In this document: positions 10,684 through 39,393 of the stretch, piece after piece | Layout of the letters: each line of letters begins with the position of its first letter | Numbering within the stretch: the first letter of the stretch is position 1 | Source of the DNA: Halichondria panicea | Lineage: Eukaryota; Porifera; Demospongiae; Suberitida; Halichondriidae | Assembly (NCBI RefSeq): GCF_963675165.1 | Contig: NC_087388.1 | Coordinates: 6,295,651-6,359,650, forward strand | Reading direction: 5' to 3' | DNA length: 64,000 nucleotides | Translations under genes and position numbers: made by a program | Notes under the pieces: generated by a model | Seen by the model: only the letters and a program-made list of their open reading frames with translations | The model's database searches: none | Told to the model about the DNA's origin: nothing

Positions 10684-10900
10684 ATGAGTGACCAATTTTA
10701 TAGTATGGCACTGAATGAGGGAGGTTACGACTACAAGTTCATAGAAGAACCTGCAGACTATCTCAAGTGTCTCATCTGTCTGCTAGTAGTTAGGGAGCCA
10801 CAACAACATGGCGGCTGTGGGAAGCTATTCTGTAAGAGCTGTATAACAAAGTACAAAAGGAACGATTGTCCTCACTGCAGACAACCAATAAGGGCATCTG

Positions 10901-11115
10901 CACTGTTAAAACAGGGGTGTATGTTTACACCCTAAAAGGAGTACACTGTACCCTTTAAAAACTACACCCCATAGGGAGTAAATAGTTTACACCCTTATAG
11001 GGTAAATTCTACCATGCAGGGTGTAAACCTTTTAAAAACTACACCCCATGGGAAGTAAAATAATAGTTTACACCCTTATAGGGTAATTATAAATTCTACC
11101 ATGCAGGGTGTAAAT
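10901..11115. repeat. left subterminal repeat array of the transposon
   Basis: Repeated TTTACACCC, CTACACCCCAT and CAGGGTGTAAA units occur in both orientations. A sub-block containing AGTTTACACCCTTATAGGG and CTACCATGCAGGGTGTAAA is present twice. CACTA transposases bind such subterminal motifs (family knowledge). Confidence 0.75.
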
Positions 11116-11272
11116 GTTGATATTCACAATTTGCAAAAAAATTCTTAGAAACACTGATTTGCAGAAATTTAACAAAGAGATTGTGAAAAGAAATGAATAA
11201 ATAAAATGATCAAGACATGTATACTAAGTGCACAGGTGAAAGAGAAATACATGCATGTGATTCAGTTTTACT

Positions 11273-13436
11273 TTACACAGTATCCATTCTCCTAAGTGAT
11301 GTGACCATTTCTATCACATTTGGTGGTGTACGTTGTTTGTCAGTTAGACCAAAAATGTGATGTTGCAAAAGAATAAATGTGGCATACCATTGCTTTGGAT
11401 ATACTACGTCAAAAATGAAATATGAAGCTATCAAATGAATTACTGCACTCTTAAATGTTGAAACTTCACTGATAGATTCGCGTTCCACCATTATGTGGAA
11501 AGACACTTCTTCTGCTGTGGATGAGACGAGAATGTATGGGGAGTTGGTCTTTATTCTTTCACCAACGACAGAGGGGTCATCAGAATTCTGAGAGTAAAAA
11601 ATATGTACGTATAATTAAGCCAATGCTATAAAATCATGCACACTCAGCAAAGAATACACGTAGTTTATAGAATAGGTAAAACAGTCACAATGTAGAATAG
11701 GTACAGTCAGCAAAATAATAATCGAATAGTTCCAGAATAATAGTGTTAAGTTCTATACAAGTTCACAACAACCCACGAACGAATAGTGTTAAGTTCCAGT
11801 TGAAGCCACTGTTACACATAATAATTATTATAGTGCTTACCTCAATAAAGTGAACGAGCATTTCTTTTCGTGACTTTGGTTTGAGCATTTCTGACAACAC
11901 TTGAAGCGTTAGGGCACCTTTATATAATTATAGAAAGAACAGAGTTAATATGAGACAGCCTTACTTTTGATCTCGTCATTGGTTGTCTGATCCATCTTGG
12001 TAAGAATATCTTGGAGTCTTTTTCGGTTGTATGATTCCAATTTGGAGTAGCAAACAATTCGTTTCTGCCAGCAATCCCAATCCTCCACCAGAGTATGAAC
12101 TGGGGTCTTATCCAAGAGTCCAACAAGTTTCTTGAATTCAGACCGGAACTATAATTAATAAATTCCGCTAAAGTTGAAAGGATTGCAATAATTTTATCAC
12201 TCACCACTTTGCGTAGTTTAAGGGAGGGAAACTTCAACAAAACATCAGATGCGAGAGGCTGGTTCTTTTTCAGCCAGTCTCGCCTACCATCAAAGGTCTC
12301 AGATGTCAGCTGCTGGATTATTGCAATATTTCTGTCTCTGCTACGCTTCCCCATTTCCTCCTGAAGCTCGACTGTTTTATCATCAAATGAAGTGTCTTCT
12401 TCTTCGTCTTCTTCTTCCACCCTTCTCCTCTTTGCTGCTGGTTCTTCACTTGCATCAGATTTGTCACTGCGATTTCGTCTCAGAAACTTCATCCTATTCC
12501 GAAGCTTTGTCTTCCATGTAGACTGAAAGATTAAAAAATGCTGTACACAGCTATTAGTGTTAAAGTAATAATTATGTTAGTATACTATACTTACATATCC
12601 AGATAGTCCAAGTTCGTCTTTGAGTGTAGGATGAGTTTGAATGAGCTTCTCACAGACTTTGTCGTAGTGCTTATGCTCTAATTCCTTCGTGTTTACAATG
12701 ATAGCCATAGCCACAGCCTGAATAATTTCAATCCTATGTTTTTTCAGCAGTATGCCAGTTGAAATTGCATTCTCAGTAGATGATGAAAATGATGTAGGAA
12801 CTTGAAAATTGAGATGCCAGTTTGGATCCGGATCTGTACTTGAGGAGGCATCGTTAGGGGAATTGAGAGCAGGTGACTGGGTTTCCTGTGTGCAAAGTAT
12901 AGATAGTATAGTATACTGTAAGACCATAATACACTACACTTACAGGTACACTTACAGGAACAGGCGCCTGAGGAGGGTGGTTTGACTGGGTTCCCTGTAG
13001 ATAGTATAACGAATAGTATAGTACTGTAACATAATACACTACACTTACAGGAACAGGCGCCTGAGGAGGGTGGTTTGACTGGGTTCCCTGTAGATAGTAT
13101 AACGAATAGTATAGTACTGTAACATAATACACTACACTTACAGGAACAGGCGCCTGAGGAGGGTCGTTTGACTGGGTTCCCTGTATAGATAGTTAGCACT
13201 GCATGATGTAAGACTATATACACCATACTTACAGATTTCTCGCTGTCTTGCAGTCTCTTCAGTTTAACTTGATCCCCAATTTTTGGAGCAATCTCCCGTA
13301 GTTGACACGCTGTCATCTCGCAGAAAACTGATCCATCAATATCATTTTCTTGAAATGCACTTATTATCTCCACACTGAAGCCTTTCTCAATGAGAAATGT
13401 GTCTAGATCATCAACACTCAAGCTGGACAATGCCAT
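11273..13436 (-). CDS. transposon-borne SAM-domain protein (SAMD3-like type), multi-exon
   Basis: Spliced minus-strand model: 13436-13233, 13180-13142, 13087-13049, 12994-12956, 12885-12595, 12522-12205, 12148-11965, 11917-11841, 11587-11273. All junctions have GT/AG signals and matching phases, and the frame stays open for about 501 residues. Exon 1 (residues 1-68) is a SAM domain (LSVDDLDTFLIEKGFS, then FQENDIDGSVFCEMT). Next come a Pro-rich stretch from three 39-nt mini-exons, an acidic and basic segment (KRRRVEEEDEEEDT) and a conserved C-terminal part (AVIHLIASYFIFDVVYPKQW, then FILLQHHIFGL). Proteins of this build accompany animal CACTA-like elements as a second ORF (from memory, not checked). 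It is divergently transcribed from the transposase. It shows no lesion, unlike the transposase. Confidence 0.72.
12944..13183 (-). repeat. tandem triplication of a 39-nt mini-exon, 93-bp period
   Basis: Three units, each a 39-nt phase-0 exon coding GTQSNxPPQAPVP with its own CAG acceptor and GTAAGT donor plus 54 bp of intron. The unit nearest the 3' end of the gene has a duplicated donor that could lengthen it in frame by 12 nt. The copies differ by very few bases. Confidence 0.8.
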
Positions 13437-13544
13437 TGTGATAGTACTTCAGTTCTTCTGCAGAGAAGATAGCTACTATAGTGTGAAAACTGCGCGTGTC
13501 TCACCATACGCATGCGCACAGCTGCACATGCACAGTACAAGATG

Positions 13545-13579
13545 TTCTAATAAACGCCCAGAATGGGCGTTTATTAGAA
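13545..13579. promoter_or_regulatory. perfect 16-bp hairpin between divergent transposon genes
   Basis: TTCTAATAAACGCCCA and TGGGCGTTTATTAGAA with a 3-nt loop, lying between the SAM gene start (13436) and the transposase start (13647). A role in the shared promoter or in transposase binding is inferred from position only. Confidence 0.5.
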
Positions 13580-13646
13580 ACCCACTAGAAAGGTGCATTT
13601 TTTAGCTATCTCTCACTGCACTAGCACTAGCACTGTTGTGAGTACA

Positions 13647-16600
13647 ATGGATAGATCTAGTCATTTAAAGCCTTGCCAACTCTGTACTTTCATCTCTACA
13701 TCGTTAAAGGACCTACTTAAGCATATTCGCCTGGTACACTCTCACAGAGCAGGCTTTCGAATTACTTGTTGCCTTAGTGGCTGTCAGAGAATGTTTAGAA
13801 CATTTGGAGTTTTCAGAAATCATGTTTATGCGTATCATACTGATCAAGAAGCTATAGTGTTGGAAAGAGATGAAGATGGTGAAGATGGCTCTGGTGGCTC
13901 TGGTGGTGAAGATGGCTCTAGTGGTGCTGGTGGCTCTGGTGGTGCTGGTGGCTACTCGGGGCTGGGGACTTTGGATTCAAGCACAAGCACATCCGACATG
14001 GACTGTCGAAAGAGAGCTGCTATGATGTGGATACTGAAGGTTCAAGAAAAGTTTCTCCTTCCCCAATCCACAATGGATATGATCACGAAAGATATCACTG
14101 TCTTCATCCAAGACCTCCTCTTAGACCTTGGTGAAGATGTATGTGCCTCCCTCACTGCTAGTGGATGTGACCCTGGTTCTGTTTCTGGATTATTTCACTC
14201 AAGTTCTGCCTATGCGAACCCTTTTGTAGGGGTGGAGTCCCAGCACATGCAGATGAAAATTTGCAGAGAAGTACTTGGAATTGTGGTAAGTATTTGATTT
14301 GTACTGTAGCAGCCAGAATAATAATCATGAATTTTGATTTGTATTTTTTAGGAACCTCACTCGGTGTTACTGGGTACTAAGAAACAGTGGAAGGGCACAG
14401 GGAAAAAGAGAGCATATATCGAGGTTCGAGATGAGATGGTGTATATCCCAATTTTGGAGACTATTCAATCACTTCTGAAGGATCTGAACGTGTTGAAATT
14501 GGTATGTGCAATTTGTTCCTGTGTATGGATTACATGACTTTATTTCTTCTGTAGGTTGAAACTGGCCACAAGTCCACTGATGGGGTCTTGAGGGACTATT
14601 GTGATGGGAACCACTTTTCTTCTCACCGTCTCCACACTCTAGACAGTAATTTCTTGCAGATTTTCTTATATTCAGATGATGTTGAAGTCTGTAATCCTCT
14701 TGGCTCCAGGCGTATCATCCACAAGCTCAGTGAGTTATTTAGGGTGTGTACGTACGTGTACTTAGTACAGTCCTCCTCTTCCTCTTACATGTAGGTTTGT
14801 ACTACTTTGTGCTCGGCAATATCCCACCTATCTTTCGATCAAAGTTGAAGTACATCCAACTTGCTGGTATAGCCAAGACTGAGCATTTGAAAGCCTATGG
14901 TTCCAATGCCATCCTAAAACCCTTGGTTGATGATATCAAGAAACTGGTGAGTCTTTATTGATTGCTGCGTGTGAACTTAACAACATGCCGTTATAATTGT
15001 TAGGAAAATGGGCATATATTCGATGTGAATGGTGTGTTGAAGAAGAAGTATGGAACAGTGTGCGTTGTACCAGCTGATAACTTGGCTGCAAACCTCATGG
15101 GTGGGTTTAAGGAGGGGTCTCGAGCAAACAGGGGTTGTCGTCATTGTCTCGCATTGGAAACTGAGATGAAAACCATTTTTAGAGAATCAGCGTTCACACT
15201 ACGCACTATTGAAGATCATTTAGACAAGTGTTCAAGGCTTGATGTTACTACAACTCAGCGTGAGTATCAGAAGTTATCAACAGAGTACGGTATCAATCAT
15301 GCCTCGCTGCTGAACGAATTGGAGTATTTCAATGTGTGTTCTGGTGGTATTATTCAAGATGTCATGCACGACGTACTCGAAGGTACCCATTGTGTAATGA
15401 ATGTACATGTGTATAGTTTATTGTAGGACGATAACACGTAATATTTAACATGTGCATATAGGTGTTCTTGAATACGAAACAAAGGAGTTACTGATTCATC
15501 ACATTAAAGTGGAAGGGTATTACTCTCTTCAACTGGTGAATCAAAAAATAGCAGCATTGGACCTTGGCTACATGGAGGCAAAAGATCGCCCATCCACTGT
15601 TACCTCTACCACACTTGATGGTGTAGACCACAAGTTGAAACAAAAAGGTATTGAGTGAAAACTACATCGTACTTGTTTAATGTGTGATTATTCTGCAGCC
15701 GTTCAAATGTGGCTTTTGGGACGCTTGCTGCCCCAAATGGTTGGCCATTTAGTACCTGCTGACGATGAGCACTGGTTAAATTTTTTGGATCTTCTTGAGA
15801 TCGTAGATCTACTACTTGCACCTGAGTTGACTGAGGATGAAGCTGTCACCCTAGCTTCAATGATAGCGGATCATCACAATGAATTCAAGCATCTGTATCC
15901 ACGCTCTTCCATCACACCCAAGTTTCATTACCTTGTACATATGCCAAGGTTAATTCTTCAGTAAGTTATATTCTGCATGCATGCATGCTTATTGGCAATT
16001 AACACTACATACGTAGCTTAATGTACCAATTAACACTGTACATATAGATATGGACCTCTTCGTCAGCTATGGACAATGCGATTTGAGGCAAAACATTCCT
16101 ACTTCAAAACGCTTTCACAACATTAGGAAATTTTATCAATCTTCCTCTCACTCTTGCTCGTCGCCACCAGAGACTACAATGCTATAGCTCGTCTGACTTG
16201 ACGAACTATTCATCTCACGTTATAAACACTGGACCAGGTATGTTCGCCACTTTTTTTTCTTTTAACCTGCATACTTGTAATTTGAAAGGTAACATTATGC
16301 TTCCGGAATGTGCACCTGAAGCAGTACGAAAGGAGAAAGGAGAAATTTCGAGGTAAATGTTTTGTCAATAATAATTATTATGATATTCACTATAATTATG
16401 TCAATTCTACAGAGTCAAGTGGGTTGAAGTAAACGGAGTCCTGTACAAAAAACCCTGTGTGTTAGTCTCTTCTGGTACTGGAGATTACCCCGTGTTTGGC
16501 CGTTTAGAAACAATCTATGTTGTCAACTCTAAGAAAGTTTTTTTTGAAGTTCAACTTCTTGAAACAGTCGAGTTTTGTGAACACTTTCATTGCTTTTTGG

Positions 16601-16743
16601 TTCAAATAACTCACACACCTTTTGTTTATGTTTCAAGTGACTCACTATTATCACCAATTCCTCATCACGTGAGGGTACTCCCTGGATCCATTGGTACTCT
16701 TTGTATTGTTCCTTTGCATCATTTTGTAATTGATGAAGTGTAA
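13647..16743 (+). CDS. CACTA-type DDE transposase with N-terminal C2H2 fingers (one frameshift)
   Basis: Spliced model: 13647-14285, 14352-14501, 14555-14729, 14795-14946, 15004-15382, 15462-15647, 15699-15960, 16048-16237, 16290-16352, 16413-16743, about 840 residues, all GT/AG. N-terminal C2H2 fingers (CQLCTFIST...HIRLVH and CCLSGC...HVYAYH) precede a Gly/Ser/Glu linker. The core shows likely catalytic acidic motifs SDDVEVCNPLGS and PADNLA, a CRHC zinc pair, MHDVLEG, and the conserved block KFHYLVHMPRLILQ followed by YGPLRQLWTMRFEAKHSYF. At about 16118-16121 one base appears to be missing (TCACAACATTAGG), giving a TAG; one more base would continue as TLGNFINLPLTLARRHQR, which fits the family. 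The enzyme is therefore probably inactive from this copy. An in-frame upstream ATG exists at 13593. Confidence 0.78.
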
Positions 16744-16786
16744 TTTTTATGTTATGATTATTGTGGCATTGTGTTACTGAAATTGG

Positions 16787-17539
16787 ATGTGCTTTATTTT
16801 AAATAAAAAACTAATTAGCTGGTGCATGCTTAAAATGGAAGATCTTGATGATCAAGTAGTTCCTCAGCTTCAAAGGGTGAAGGTATCAATTTATCCAAAG
16901 TGCTGGGAGAATCAAACCAACTTGGTGCAAACTTTCCTCGTAAAGAAACATTCTGAGGAGTGGGGCCATTTTGTATCAAGAATTCAAGAATCATTGCCGA
17001 ATTCAGTGGTCCATAAAATAGTAAGAATTCAAAACAAGTTCCTCTGGGACAGGTATTCCCTAGAAAAGAAGCTTTTAGAACTAAAGACCGTGAAACTGAC
17101 CAGTAATGAGATTGAAGTGTTTCACGGAAGTGGTAGTGCTGACCCATTCAATGATATAGCCACGAGTGAGCACGGCTTTGACATGCGGCAATCCAAAATT
17201 GGCTTGTGGGGAAGAGCAAACTACTTTTCTACCACAGCCAAATACTCGGACAGCTTTTGTCACAAAACATTTGACACATCGAATAATCGACAAGTTAAGG
17301 AACTAATAATAGCCTACGTTTTATTAGGAGAAATACTGGACCTGGGACGAAATACAAACAACACTCTGACGCTCCCTCCACAGAAAGAAGTAAATTCAGG
17401 AAGTAGGCCATCTACATTTAATGTAACTAACCTTAGGTACGATAGTGTTGCTGGGATTACAAGTGATACTCGAATCTACATGACTTATGATAAGCATAGA
17501 GCTTATCCTTCATATATTGTGCAATATACCACTGACTAA
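16787..17539 (+). CDS. PARP-type ADP-ribosyltransferase domain protein inside the transposon
   Basis: A single open frame of up to 250 residues (ATG at 16787; alternatives at 16826 and 16835) starts 44 bp after the transposase stop, on the same strand. Residues about 74-250 match a PARP catalytic domain of the PARP10/14/15 and TIPARP kind: VHKIVRIQNKFLWDRY at the entrance, the NAD-binding FHGSG (His113), GFDMRQSKIGLWGRANYFS with Tyr146, AKYSDSF, LRYDSV and the final strand AYPSYIVQY. Glu does not seem to occupy the third triad position (Ser242 or a neighbouring Ile), as in mono-ADP-ribosyltransferases; this alignment is tentative. The frame is intact and the ORF has no introns. No macro, WWE or zinc-finger partner domain is present. 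It could be an independent gene or a 3' exon of the transposase transcript. Confidence 0.78.
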   Translation: MCFILNKKLISWCMLKMEDLDDQVVPQLQRVKVSIYPKCWENQTNLVQTFLVKKHSEEWGHFVSRIQESLPNSVVHKIVRIQNKFLWDRYSLEKKLLELKTVKLTSNEIEVFHGSGSADPFNDIATSEHGFDMRQSKIGLWGRANYFSTTAKYSDSFCHKTFDTSNNRQVKELIIAYVLLGEILDLGRNTNNTLTLPPQKEVNSGSRPSTFNVTNLRYDSVAGITSDTRIYMTYDKHRAYPSYIVQYTTD

Positions 17540-17935
17540 GTTTTCATGTGTGATGTGTTACATAATAATAGTGTCATTTATGATGAACAACTCTTATTAA
17601 CACTCGGGGGCCGGGGGGGGATCGATTTGAGCTACATGAAAATGTTTTGATACTTAACAGCTTCAGATCACGATTTTGAACGATAATAATGATGATACAA
17701 ATAATTATAAATAATGAAAAAAGCTGTCGGATAAATAAAAGAGCCATGTTCGATTAGTAAGCGTACATTCCTTGGGACAACTGCCGCTTCATACTCCATC
17801 TAAAGGATAGTTAATAATGAAATTCAGATGTACATACACTTACCTGTAAGATTGAGCCATCTTCCATGTACTTCCATAAGTCTGTACAAGCCTCAGAGTA
17901 AAGAACATTTCAGGAAAAGCCATAATTTTATTATT
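17540..17935. other. transposon 3' non-coding segment
   Basis: AT-rich sequence with a G/C run at 17605-17621 and many AATAAT runs. I see no gene between the PARP ORF and the right subterminal array. Confidence 0.5.
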
Positions 17936-18082
17936 AGCTTACTACCACACAGTGTTTACACCTTTTGCTTTTCTAGTTTACACCTTATGCTGTTGTAATA
18001 TACACCCACCTATTTTTACTCCCCAAACCAGGTCTTCGTTTACACCCTAGTGCATGTTCTATACACCTCATTTTTAACAGTG
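17936..18082. repeat. right subterminal repeat array of the transposon
   Basis: Motifs GTTTACACC, AGTTTACACC, TATACACCCACC and GTTTACACCCTAG repeat before the terminal TTTTTAACAGTG, mirroring the left end. Confidence 0.7.
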
Positions 18083-19408
18083 TGGATACCAGCAATTTGG
18101 GGGAACCATCTTTAACGATTTCAAGAGTGAGTTAAACATGAGCTACACGTAAAAATAATACATATACAGCATTGTATATATATACTATATATAGCTTCGA
18201 TTCCAGACCACTAGCTGAGAAGGGAAAGATGTCTGTCTTCTCATCTATAAATTATATAGTGGCCTGGAATTGATTGAGGCTATATCAAAACATTTCCTGT
18301 AGCTTAAACTATATATATACTCTTAATACTCTAGGTGACCAAGAGGTAAAGTCTCTGCTAGTATACTGCACGACCAGCTGTGGTTGGAAGGGGGAGCTGC
18401 GATCAGTCGAAGATCACGAGAAAAACAAATGCGAAAATACTACTATTCCATGCCCAAATGCTTGCCACGTCACGTTTCTAAGAAAAAATCTTCAGCTTCA
18501 TCTTGAGACAGAATGCCTAAAGCGACTTACAAGCTGCCTAAAGTGTAAGCAAGAGATGGAATATCGAGATCTGGACAACCACATGGCAAGCAAGTGCCCC
18601 AAGAGACAGTACACATGTTCACACTGCAATGAAGCTGGTATGTATGATAAGAGAACTACTATATACACATCTAGAAGTCTGTCCTAAAGTCAAGGTTGAG
18701 TGTTCCAAGTGCTCACGTTCAGTTTTACGCTGTGATGAATCTGACCATCCTTTGGATTGCCCAAATGAACCAGTTTTTTGCAAGTACTACAATATTGGAT
18801 GTGGGGAGAAGCCACTAAGAAAGGATTTGAATAATCACGAGGAAAATGCTCAGCTTCACCTTTCATTAGCAACTGATAAGATATTGAAATTAACTAATAT
18901 GCTAGTCGTAAAAAACATATTAACGTTTAAAATAAATGGGTATAAAGAGAAACAAGATAAAGATCATCAATTTTTAAGCCCAGCATTTCGTACTTCAGAA
19001 TCAGGCTACAAGATGTGCCTGAGAGTTGATGCCAATGGCAGGGGTGATGCTAAGGGCACTCATGTTTCAGTATTTGCCTGTCTCATGAAGGGAGACAATA
19101 ATGACTCCCTGTTCTGGCCGTTCACTGGGACAGCCACAGTCGAGCTACTTAACCAACTGGAGGACAAGAACCATCACAAGGAGACAATTGCATTCCCAGC
19201 AGGCAGAGTGTACACTCAAAGAGTGGTCAGCCGTGAGAGAGGGAGAGGATATGGGTATCCTGAGTTCATCTCCCACGCTGACCTCGCTTACAAGCCTCTT
19301 ACAAACACTCAGTACCTCAAAAACGACACTCTAATATTCCGAGTATTTGCAGAAGCTCCTGACTACAAACCATGGCTGGAGTGTACCAACTGTGTGTATA
19401 GTGCATGA

Positions 19409-29384: not shown

Positions 29385-29564
29385 TGTTTATAATTATGCA
29401 TGTATACGTGTACATACAAATTTTCTTTGTGATATTTATATCACATGACTGAGTATATTTGTGGGGGTGGTCGTAGTATACTTATACATGTACGTACGTC
29501 TTATATATATTATATGTCAGATGTCAAATGCATTGAAAAGTCAATAGACGATTAATTAGTGTAC

Positions 29565-31010
29565 AACTTTGTGGTAGAACCTGCGGACTCTCTAAAGTGT
29601 CTCATCTGTCTGCCAGTAGTTAGGGAGCCACAACAACATGGCGGCTGTGGGAAGCTATATTCTGTAAAGTGTGTATTGGAATGTACAGGAGGAACGATTG
29701 TCCTCATTGCAGACAACCAATAAGGGCATCTGGTTACCAGCAATTCGGGGGAACCATCTTTAACGATTTCAAGAGTGAGTTAAACATGAGCTAGTAAGTG
29801 TACATAATTATACACAACATTGTACTTTATACGAAATAGCTAAGCCACTATAGTAAAAGGGGTAATGAAAGGTATTTTTAAGCGGCTTGGAATCGAGGCC
29901 TATCAGAACATTTTCTGTGTCTTTTAACAAGTTTTTTTCCTCTACATGCATAGGTGATCAAGAGGTGAAGTCTCTGCTAGTATACTGCACAACCAGCTGT
30001 GGTTGGCAGGGGGAGCTACGATCAATCGAAGATCATAAGAAAAACATGTGCGAAAATACTGAAATCCCATGCCCAAATGCTTGCATGTAACACAAAGCCT
30101 ATGAGAAAAAATCTTCAGCTTCATCTTGAGACAGAATGCCTAAAGCGACTCACAAGCTCCCTAAAGTGTACGCAAGAGATAGAGTATCGAGATCTGGACA
30201 ACCACATGGCAAGAAAATTCCCCAAGAGACAGTACACATGCCCACACTGCAATGAAGCTGGTGTGTATATGATGAGAGAACTACTACACATCTAGAAGTC
30301 TGTCCTAAAGTAGAGGTCCCGTGTTATAAATGCTCGGGTACATTTTCTTGCTGCGATGAATCAAGTCATCCAGTATTTTGCCCTAATGAACCAGTTCAAT
30401 GCAAGTACTACAGTATCGGCTGTGCAGAGAAGCCTCTAAGAAAGGATAAGAGTACGCACGAAAAAAATGCACAGCTTCACCTTTCACTAGAAACAGAAGA
30501 GTTATTGAGGCTAAAGAAAGCACAGTGCTGGAAAAATGCTCTAACATTCAGAATAAAAAACTACAAGGTACTCGAATTAGAAGGAAAATATTTTTATAGC
30601 CCTCCCTTCTTAACTTCAGCATCAGGCTACAAGATGTGTATACGTGTTGATACTGGTAAAGGCACTCATGTTTCAGTGTATGCCTATCTCATGAAGGGAG
30701 ACAATGATGACTCCTTGTCCTGGCCATTCACTGGGAGAGTTACATTTGAGCTACTCAACCAACTGGAGGATGATAACCATCACAAGGAGACAACCACATT
30801 CGCAGCAGACAGTGTTTCCAGTCAGAGGGTGGTGGATCGTGAGAGAGGGGGGAAAGGACGGGCCCGGACTAAGTTCATCTCCCACGCTGACCTCGATTAC
30901 AATGTTGATAAGAAAACTCAGTACCTCAAAGGCGACACTCTATAATATTCCGAGTATCTGCAGAAGCTCCTGACTACAAGCCATGGCTAGAGTGCACCAA
31001 CTGTGTGTAG
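29565..31010 (+). pseudogene. T8: TRAF-like pseudogene (subfamily A)
   Basis: Exon 1 (about 29565-29774) lacks the start codon and NEGGYDYKF part, and has an AT insertion in AAGCTATATTCTG inside the RING. Exon 2 starts at 29954 (DQEVKSLLVYC). A CATG insertion at 30084-30087 changes GCTTGTAACAC to GCTTGCATGTAAC and makes a TAA. A zinc ligand is lost (KFPKRQ for KCPKRQ) near 30217. An AT insertion at about 30267 (GTGTATATGATG) and a TA insertion at about 30941 (CTCTATAATATTCC) shift the frame again. The MATH core stays readable (30505-30945). There are more independent micro-insertions here than in any other copy. Confidence 0.88.
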
Positions 31011-37868: not shown

Positions 37869-39393
37869 ATGTCTGGCCAATTTTCTAGCCTATCACTGAA
37901 TGAGGGAGGTTATGACTACAAGTTCATAGAAGAACCTGCAGACTCTCTCAAGTGTCTCATTTGTCTGCTAGTAGTTAGGGAGCCACAACAACATGGCGGC
38001 TGTGGGAAGCTATTCTGTAAGAGCTGTATAACTAAGTACAGGAGGAACGATTGTCCTCACTGCAGACAACCAATCAGGGCATCTGGTTACCAGCAATTTG
38101 GGGGAACCATCTTTAACGATTTCAAGAGTGAGTTAAACATGAGCTACACGTAATCATATACAGCATTGTATATATATACATCACATCATTATATAGCTTC
38201 GATTCCAGGCCACTAGCTGAGAAGGGAAAGATGTCTGTCTTCTCATCTATAAATTATATAGTGGCCTGGAATTGATTGAGGCTATATCAAAACATTTCCT
38301 GTAGCTTAAACTATATACTCTTAATACTCTAGGTGACCAAGAGGTAAAGTCTCTGCTAGTATACTGCACGACCAGCTGTGGTTGGCAGGGGGAGCTGCGA
38401 TCAGTCGAAAATCACGAGAAGAACAAATGCGAAAATAGTACTATTTTATGCCCAAATGCTTGCCACGTCACGTTTCTAAGAAAAAATCTTCAGCTTCATC
38501 TTGAGACAGAATGCCTAAAGCGACTTACAAGCTGCCTAAAGTGTGAGCAAGAGATGGAATATCGAGATCTGGACAACCACATGGCAAGCGAGTGCCCCAA
38601 GAGACAGTACACATGCCCACACTGCAATGAAGCTGGTGTGTATGATGAGAGAACTACTACACATCTGGAAGTCTGTCCTAAAGTAGAGGTCGAGTGTTCG
38701 AAGTGCTCACGTTTAGTTTTACGCTGTGATGAATCTGATCATCCTTTGGATTGCCTGAATGAACCAGTTTTTTGCAAGTACTACAATATTGGATGTGGAG
38801 AGAAGCCACTAAGAAAAGATTTGACTAATCACGAGGAAAATGCTCAGCTTCACCTTTCATTAGCAACTGATAAGATATTGAAATTAACTAATATGCTAGT
38901 CGTAAAAAACATACTAACGTTTAAAATAAATGGGTATAAAGAGAAACAAGATAAAGATCATCAATTTTTAAGCCCAGCATTTCGTACTTCAGAATCAGGC
39001 TACAAGATGTGCCTGAGAGTTGATGCCAATGGCAGGGGTGATGCTAAGGGCACTCATGTTTCAGTATTTGCCTGTCTCATGAAGGGAGACAATGATGACT
39101 CCCTGTTCTGGCCGTTCACTGGGACAGCCACAGTCGAGCTACTTAACCAACTGGAGGACAAGAACCATCACAAGGAGACAATTGCATTCCCAGCAGGCAG
39201 AGTGTACACTCAAAGAGTGGTCAGCCGTGAGAGAGGGAGAGGATATGGGTATCCTGAGTTCATCTCCCACGCTGACCTCGCTCACAAGCCTCTTACAAAC
39301 ACTCAGTACCTCAAAAACGACACTCTAATATTTCGAGTATCTGCAGAAGCTCCTGACTACAAGCCATGGCTGGAGTGTACCAAGTGTGTTTAG
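37869..39393 (+). CDS. T10: TRAF-like protein, intact twin of T3 (subfamily A)
   Basis: Exons 37869-38127 and 38333-39393 give 439 residues: MSGQFSSLSLNEGG, then RING ligands C29, C32, H42, C45, C50, C53, C62, C65 with Lys47 in the usual His place. Exon 1 ends GYQQFGGTIFNDFK, the stretch split by the transposon in T3. The zinc-finger block opens DQEVKSLLVYCTTSCGW and includes CPNACHVTFLRKN, CLKCEQEMEYRDLDNH, CPHCNEAGVYDERTTTH and CKYYNIGC. MATH motifs: SESGYKMCLRVDANG, FWPFTG, LNQLED, TLIFRV; tail LECTKCV. The 205-bp intron contains a hairpin (GATTCCAGGCCACTA / TAGTGGCCTGGAATT), also present in T3. No lesions. Confidence 0.91.

Follow-up and report, generated by a model that had tools for sequence, protein, structure and literature searches.

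A CACTA-like DNA transposon of the sponge Halichondria panicea with a PARP catalytic domain beside its transposase

A CACTA-like DNA transposon of 7,182 bp (10901-18082) interrupts the RING exon of a TRAF-like gene in Halichondria panicea and carries an intact PARP catalytic domain behind its transposase gene. We regard it as a three-gene animal CACTA-like element with a catalytic domain that was captured from a PARP14-like gene and has been kept as an accessory enzyme, and give this reading a probability of roughly 0.55. A selected accessory enzyme is the most likely role of the PARP, and its main rival is a PARP that is merely carried along. An intact PARP domain that recurs at one and the same position in several transposon copies would point to the use of ADP-ribosylation by mobile DNA itself. 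Even as a passenger, the PARP would make this an animal CACTA-like element in which a whole enzyme domain accompanies the element's transposase. Positions refer to the window, which is the whole stretch of 64,000 nucleotides that was analysed (C12:6295651-6359650), and the genome searches covered 131 Mb in 39 contigs. The features of the element are collected in Table 1.

Table 1. Features of the transposon and its insertion site, in window positions
Feature	Position	Strand	Basis
TSD, left copy, TG	10899..10900	.	Empty-site join with a single TG restores the TRAF-like RING exon
Left TIR, CACTGTTAAAA...GGTGTAT	10901..10922	+	Inverted-repeat match, empty site, end pattern elsewhere in the genome
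SAM-like protein gene, multi-exon, start 13436, likely stop 11273-11275	11273..13436	-	Frames, splice-site-like motifs
Inverted repeat, 16 bp perfect, 3-base loop	13545..13579	.	In the 210-bp divergent intergenic region between SAM-like gene and transposase
Transposase gene, ten exons, nine GT-AG introns	13647..16743	+	Frames, splice sites, relatives in the genome
AATAAA between transposase stop and PARP start	16802..16807	+	Sequence motif
PARP catalytic-domain ORF, 234 aa, one open frame	16835..17539	+	PF00644 E 4.7e-13, 49.5 bits, cut-off 26.7
AATAAA downstream of PARP	17734..17739	+	Sequence motif
Right TIR, ...TTTTTAACAGTG	18061..18082	-	Inverted-repeat match, empty site, end pattern in the genome
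TSD, right copy, TG	18083..18084	.	Empty-site test

If the flanks of the element are joined with one TG, they form an open RING exon (...CPHCRQPIRASGYQQFGGTIFNDFK...) that matches the uninterrupted paralogues at 37877-38141 and 29562-29788 of the window, with no indel at the junction and one substitution beside it. Therefore, this is a genuine insertion with exact borders. The initial annotation had set the ends of the element by inverted repeats and a target duplication, and the empty site, which contains no PARP, agrees with both, the duplication being just 2 bp long. The left terminal repeat matches the right end perfectly over 11 bp, and over 22 bp with three mismatches. Terminal repeats of CACTA/EnSpm elements start with CACTA, beside which CACTG is accepted, and CACTGTTAAAA is found at both ends of this element. 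The TG duplication, backed by the empty site, falls within the 2-3 bp of CACTA/EnSpm elements, and 2-bp duplications are reported for animal CACTA relatives in passages of PMC1636069. The 21-base end pattern, allowing at most two mismatches, has 97 matches in the genome (58 forward, 39 reverse) compared to 14 for the reversed control, and several of these, judged by eye, face each other in pairs at distances of 1.2-2 kb, as non-autonomous relatives would. The same terminal repeat is also found in two wider facing pairs, C1:13638714-13645142 (6.4 kb) and C12:3217993-3226939 (8.9 kb), which are possible long relatives; among the matches listed, none to PARP or transposase lies within them.

The transposase had been described as frameshifted, and the break turns out to be a single 1-bp shift in exon 8 near 16120, while the remaining frames chain through the nine introns, whose splice sites were judged by eye. 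The alignment of the protein with L036, a member of a related family with an uninterrupted frame of 643 aa, reaches the end of the protein, and the N terminus has a weak C2H2 match under the cut-off. Transposase_21 gave no Pfam match in the four transposase pieces of the window and weak matches in two of the 12 relatives or pieces scanned (best E 0.007; L036 with 15.3 bits against a cut-off of 28.6). In addition, one weak relative (L058) is located about 30 bp from a PF02992 match. Because Transposase_21 is reached only weakly, the element is called CACTA-like. A Pack-CACTA element holds a captured gene fragment within an element without its own transposase, and to our knowledge no Pack-CACTA element has a transposase of its own; here a transposase gene is present, though frameshifted.

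The frame behind the transposase is a PARP catalytic domain that passes the profile search with PF00644 (Table 1), covering profile positions 24-198 of 199. The open frame with PARP motifs between the element ends is present as first described. Its triad, H97-Y130-I214, aligns with the triad of PARP12. In this enzyme family, H-Y with a hydrophobic third residue in place of H-Y-E marks the mono-transferases, and the triad found here is of this type. The nearest solved structures in the PDB are PARP12 (E 1.3e-17) and then PARP15/PARP14, with which the element PARP shares the catalytic domain and the order of its motifs. In contrast to these proteins it stands alone with 234 aa, is encoded by a transposon, and gave no Pfam match to macro, WWE or zinc-finger domains, whereas WWE domains over the cut-off are present in three of the seven host PARP proteins or part-proteins scanned, one of which also has a macro domain. 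The frame also spans the linker that directly precedes the catalytic domain in host proteins (W..Q and ..EW), which would be expected of a piece excised from a larger protein. The first in-frame ATG is at 16787, but the ATG that is conserved in all four copies covering this region is the one at 16835, and L070, the copy on C2, has a 2-bp deletion between the two positions. The PARP had been placed 44 bp behind the transposase on the same strand; the strand is the same, but the conserved ATG follows the transposase stop at 16743 by 91 bp. The AATAAA at 16802 could be a poly(A) signal for the transposase transcript and, together with the motif at 17734, would permit separate transcripts of transposase and PARP. 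We also considered whether the PARP might be a C-terminal transposase exon and rejected this, because the transposase ends where L036 ends and the PARP starts with a conserved ATG of its own. The PARP of the window copy is probably catalytically competent.

The PARP belongs to the element in every copy in which its place could be inspected. The copy on C2 (L070) is co-linear with the window over 11218-17610 with many gaps, and its PARP (96% protein identity to the window PARP) likewise follows the transposase, in unchanged order and orientation. Its segment corresponding to 17632-17993 is inverted. A relic on C15 (L071) matches 16685-17739 and thus contains the transposase end, the spacer, PARP remains with a broken frame, and the DNA behind, and a relic on C1 (L075) preserves the spacer with some of the transposase tail before it and the first PARP codons behind it, after which it is rearranged. 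Of seven loci fetched, these three reach the junction between transposase and PARP and four do not (L072, L073, L074, and L076). With the window itself, four copies cover the junction, and the PARP is there in all four. No copy that reaches the junction without a PARP was found among the best-scoring candidates of the genome, although others may exist, and among the 39 listed pieces matching the whole element only those of the window, C2, and C15 cover it. The initial annotation had named, as the mark of a nested insertion, other full-length copies that all lack the frame together with a PARP flanked by its own insertion boundaries; instead, L070 and the two relics have kept the junction with the PARP. 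It had also proposed to look for the PARP inside the same terminal repeats elsewhere, and here the answer is divided: the PARP is at the same junction in other copies, but both terminal repeats have been kept in the window copy only. That the PARP is integral cargo of the element is very probable.

Among 26 transposase matches in the genome, three, which belong to the window and C2 copies, are located within 10 kb of a listed PARP match (distances taken by eye; the PARP remnant of L075 is too short to appear among the listed PARP matches). Therefore, the PARP is a mark of this lineage rather than of the transposase family at large. A related transposase with 40% identity has open frames of 636-643 aa and equal scores in six copies (C1:2194486, C1:3042329, C5:2586198, C8:526512, C11:2503121, and C11:2510923), and this family has probably been active recently. 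Among the matches listed, no PARP match lies within 10 kb of any of the six, and the PARP is thus not needed for transposition in general.

If the PARP were a neutral passenger, a fragment captured once by transduplication and since then merely carried, its open frame in two copies would reflect nothing but their youth. We consider this possible, at somewhat better than one chance in three. The window copy and L070 differ by 142 substitutions in 5,288 aligned bases (about 2.7%), and L070 has 62 deletions (1,153 bp) and 21 insertions (103 bp). All five indels within the PARP are multiples of three, compared to 16 of 33 in the transposase exons (Fisher p 0.04), eight of 28 outside the coding exons (p 0.005 against the PARP), and four of 12 in the SAM-like exons; for the transposase exons against elsewhere p is 0.09. 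This tally stems from one MAFFT alignment, in which five indels crossing exon edges were left out (three SAM, two transposase). The dN/dS of the PARP is 0.29 in a protein-guided codon alignment or 0.33 (binomial p 0.02), and that of the transposase is 0.80 (p 0.33). The changes in the PARP are few, however, with 9.5 synonymous and 10.5 other ones in the alignment giving 0.29, and the ratio is low because dS is higher in the PARP (0.056 versus 0.023) and not because of dN, which is 0.018 in both genes. The equal dN fits a passenger, as do the loss of a conserved motif in L070 and the broken frame of one relic. In the PARP of L070, six residues (GEILDL) of a conserved stretch are missing, including a glycine invariant in the host proteins, and another three are lost downstream; of the 42 columns that are invariant in eight host PARPs it retains 32. 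Because of these losses it may be inactive. Furthermore, gene fragments captured by plant DNA transposons are usually non-functional according to passages of PMC13317346. On the other hand, the in-frame indels speak against a passenger, and the window PARP keeps 34 of the 42 invariant columns at 33-39% identity to the eight host proteins. A complete catalytic domain with a full triad and this many columns at less than 40% identity is unlike a random fragment, unless it came from a distant unsampled donor. These columns are the stronger and older hint of selection, though part of that history may predate the capture. The indels and dN/dS values are suggestive of selection on the PARP but not strong, and together they give moderate support to a PARP frame that would have been under selection while the elements moved. 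The initial annotation had taken the intact PARP as a hint of selection and had proposed dN/dS among copies as a check: the ratio of the PARP is indeed below that of the transposase and the indels are in frame, but the gap lies in dS, dN is equal, and the numbers are small.

Concerning the origin of the PARP, the best host matches are two genes on C16 and one on C15, with 39-41% identity in the genome search and 37-39% in the comparison made for the trees, and the alignment reveals ANYF, GFDMR, and MTYD as common to these genes and the element PARP. In trees without PARP12 the element PARP groups with the C16/C15 genes (support 58/40 and 67/73), and in the tree with PARP12 it joins PARP12 by long branches (58/78). 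The phylogeny against host PARPs that had been suggested therefore yields groupings but no firm placement. A recent capture from a present host PARP, as the initial annotation had considered, is rejected: the best host identity is 38.7-41%, and the PARP was already there before at least four of the copies split. A PARP14-like gene was likely its source, though the trees give no firm placement of the donor; this may have been a gene of this host lineage, or the PARP may have arrived with the element from another animal. In the latter case the element would have come by horizontal transfer and its PARP would reflect that other donor, which is compatible with either an accessory enzyme or a passenger. 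The lack of a close host donor (best paralogue 38.7-41%), the few copies, and the long branch without firm placement would fit such a transfer. However, the motifs shared with the C16/C15 genes and at least two decayed relics, which suggest a long residence, do not, and we give it about one chance in four. Relatives were also looked for in prokaryote genome contigs (13 pattern matches) and viral contigs (43), collections unsuited to an animal element, and none passed tblastn. The host PARP matches themselves are repeated in clusters at C15:691-770 kb and C13:153-204 kb, some with internal stops.

It could be imagined that the host has taken over the PARP of the immobile C2 copy, given that the match of L070 ends short of both terminal repeats and its transposase is broken while its PARP frame is open. 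Such a domestication is improbable, however: the PARP of L070 has lost part of the conserved stretch, and about 2.7% substitutions from the window are too little to reveal long retention after immobilisation. That the PARP is a nested insertion or an ordinary host gene adjoining the element, for which nothing speaks beyond the separate ORF and the AATAAA between the genes, is rejected for this genome with hardly any residual probability, since the same junction is common to four copies at four genomic places and the empty site is without a PARP.

If the PARP is a kept accessory enzyme, the element lineage would have acquired the catalytic domain, before its present copies diverged, from a PARP14-like gene of some animal host, and the PARP would have moved with the element since its capture. 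Translation would begin at the ATG of the PARP itself, on a separate transcript or with the PARP as a downstream frame of the transposase unit. Given the H-Y-I triad and no reader or targeting domains it would be an active mono-ADP-ribosyltransferase, and because it is without reader domains it would act in trans. Its targets would be host proteins or the transposase, and the element would profit from this action. Candidate effects would be a blunting of host silencing or of antiviral-type PARP signalling, or a biased repair of excision breaks. Passages of PMC8195603, citing Daugherty 2014, implicate host PARP14-type proteins in antiviral responses, but a role of the element PARP in host defence or repair is speculation. 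Whether the PARP has been retained because it helps the element is, in our estimate, a matter of even chances. A more specific proposal is tentative, and we would sooner doubt than believe it: the PARP would work in trans as part of the lineage's own equipment, either by mono-ADP-ribosylating proteins of host defence or repair or by competing with antiviral PARPs of the host, and would thereby let the element move or escape silencing. If this were true, it would amount to a counter-defence of transposons in eukaryotes that relies on NAD chemistry.

Host enzyme domains in transposons are already known, and a PARP in such an element was not found in the literature searched. Among the matches listed, no title or abstract opening describes a PARP inside a DNA transposon, most subscription journals and Repbase reports being outside this scope, and the passages of PMC8195603 and PMC10136691 report none. 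The KIU (Kaonashi) genes, in the passages of PMC13317346, encode an Ulp1 protease domain in plant Mutator-like elements. As here, a host-type enzyme domain recurs as one of three coding genes in a group of DNA transposons, but the domain is Ulp1 in plant Mutator-like elements and not an ADP-ribosyltransferase in an animal CACTA-like one. Plant Pack-CACTA and other gene-capturing CACTA elements, treated in part of the same paper, hold captured gene pieces and resemble the present element in their CACTA-type ends with host sequence inside. However, these are mostly gene fragments, whereas here the catalytic ORF is complete, accompanies a transposase of the element itself, and occupies the same position in several copies. 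SmTRC1, as far as described in the excerpts of PMC1636069, is an animal CACTA-related transposon with a Transposase_21 domain, ends starting with CCC, and spliced transcripts. It shares with our element the 2-bp direct repeats at the ends, the animal host, and spliced transcripts, which here are inferred from splice sites, but differs in the Transposase_21 domain that is weakly reached here and in its CCC instead of CACTG ends, and no PARP was found in the SmTRC1 passages of that paper. The TRADD-N conflict genes of marine animals, some of which are fused to Mutator/Mule-like cut-and-paste transposons (PMC8195603, in part), likewise join immunity-type animal genes to DNA transposons, and PARP-14-like ART domains are present in the same gene families; however, neither a PARP inside a transposon nor a CACTA-like element is described in those passages. 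Finally, VANC of plant VANDAL elements is a sequence-specific anti-silencing factor (PMC5735166, PMC10398659). As an accessory transposon protein countering host control it might be an analogue of the element PARP, which however is an ADP-ribosyltransferase and not a plant sequence-specific factor.

The third gene of the element encodes a SAM-like protein with weak Pfam SAM matches (best E 0.0035) under the cut-off, and its exon chain is inferred. Between 12947 and 13225 this gene contains a 93-bp unit repeated three times with two identical copies, and the unit seems to comprise one small exon and its intron. The inverted repeat between the SAM-like gene and the transposase is possibly regulatory. 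Near the right terminus there is a short minus-strand frame (17814-17909) with a splice-donor-like end. The right end itself (17822-18082) is 97% alike in L076 on C11, which has no PARP match ahead of it. The TRAF-like genes form a tandem array at 4773-62637 of the window, in which RING exon matches begin at 19 places including the interrupted one, and the transposon has disrupted one member of this array. The old copies of the element (L070, L071, and L075, the last two judged by eye) decay chiefly by many small deletions, accompanied by short local duplications and inversions and by few substitutions, and this mode of decay looks unusual.
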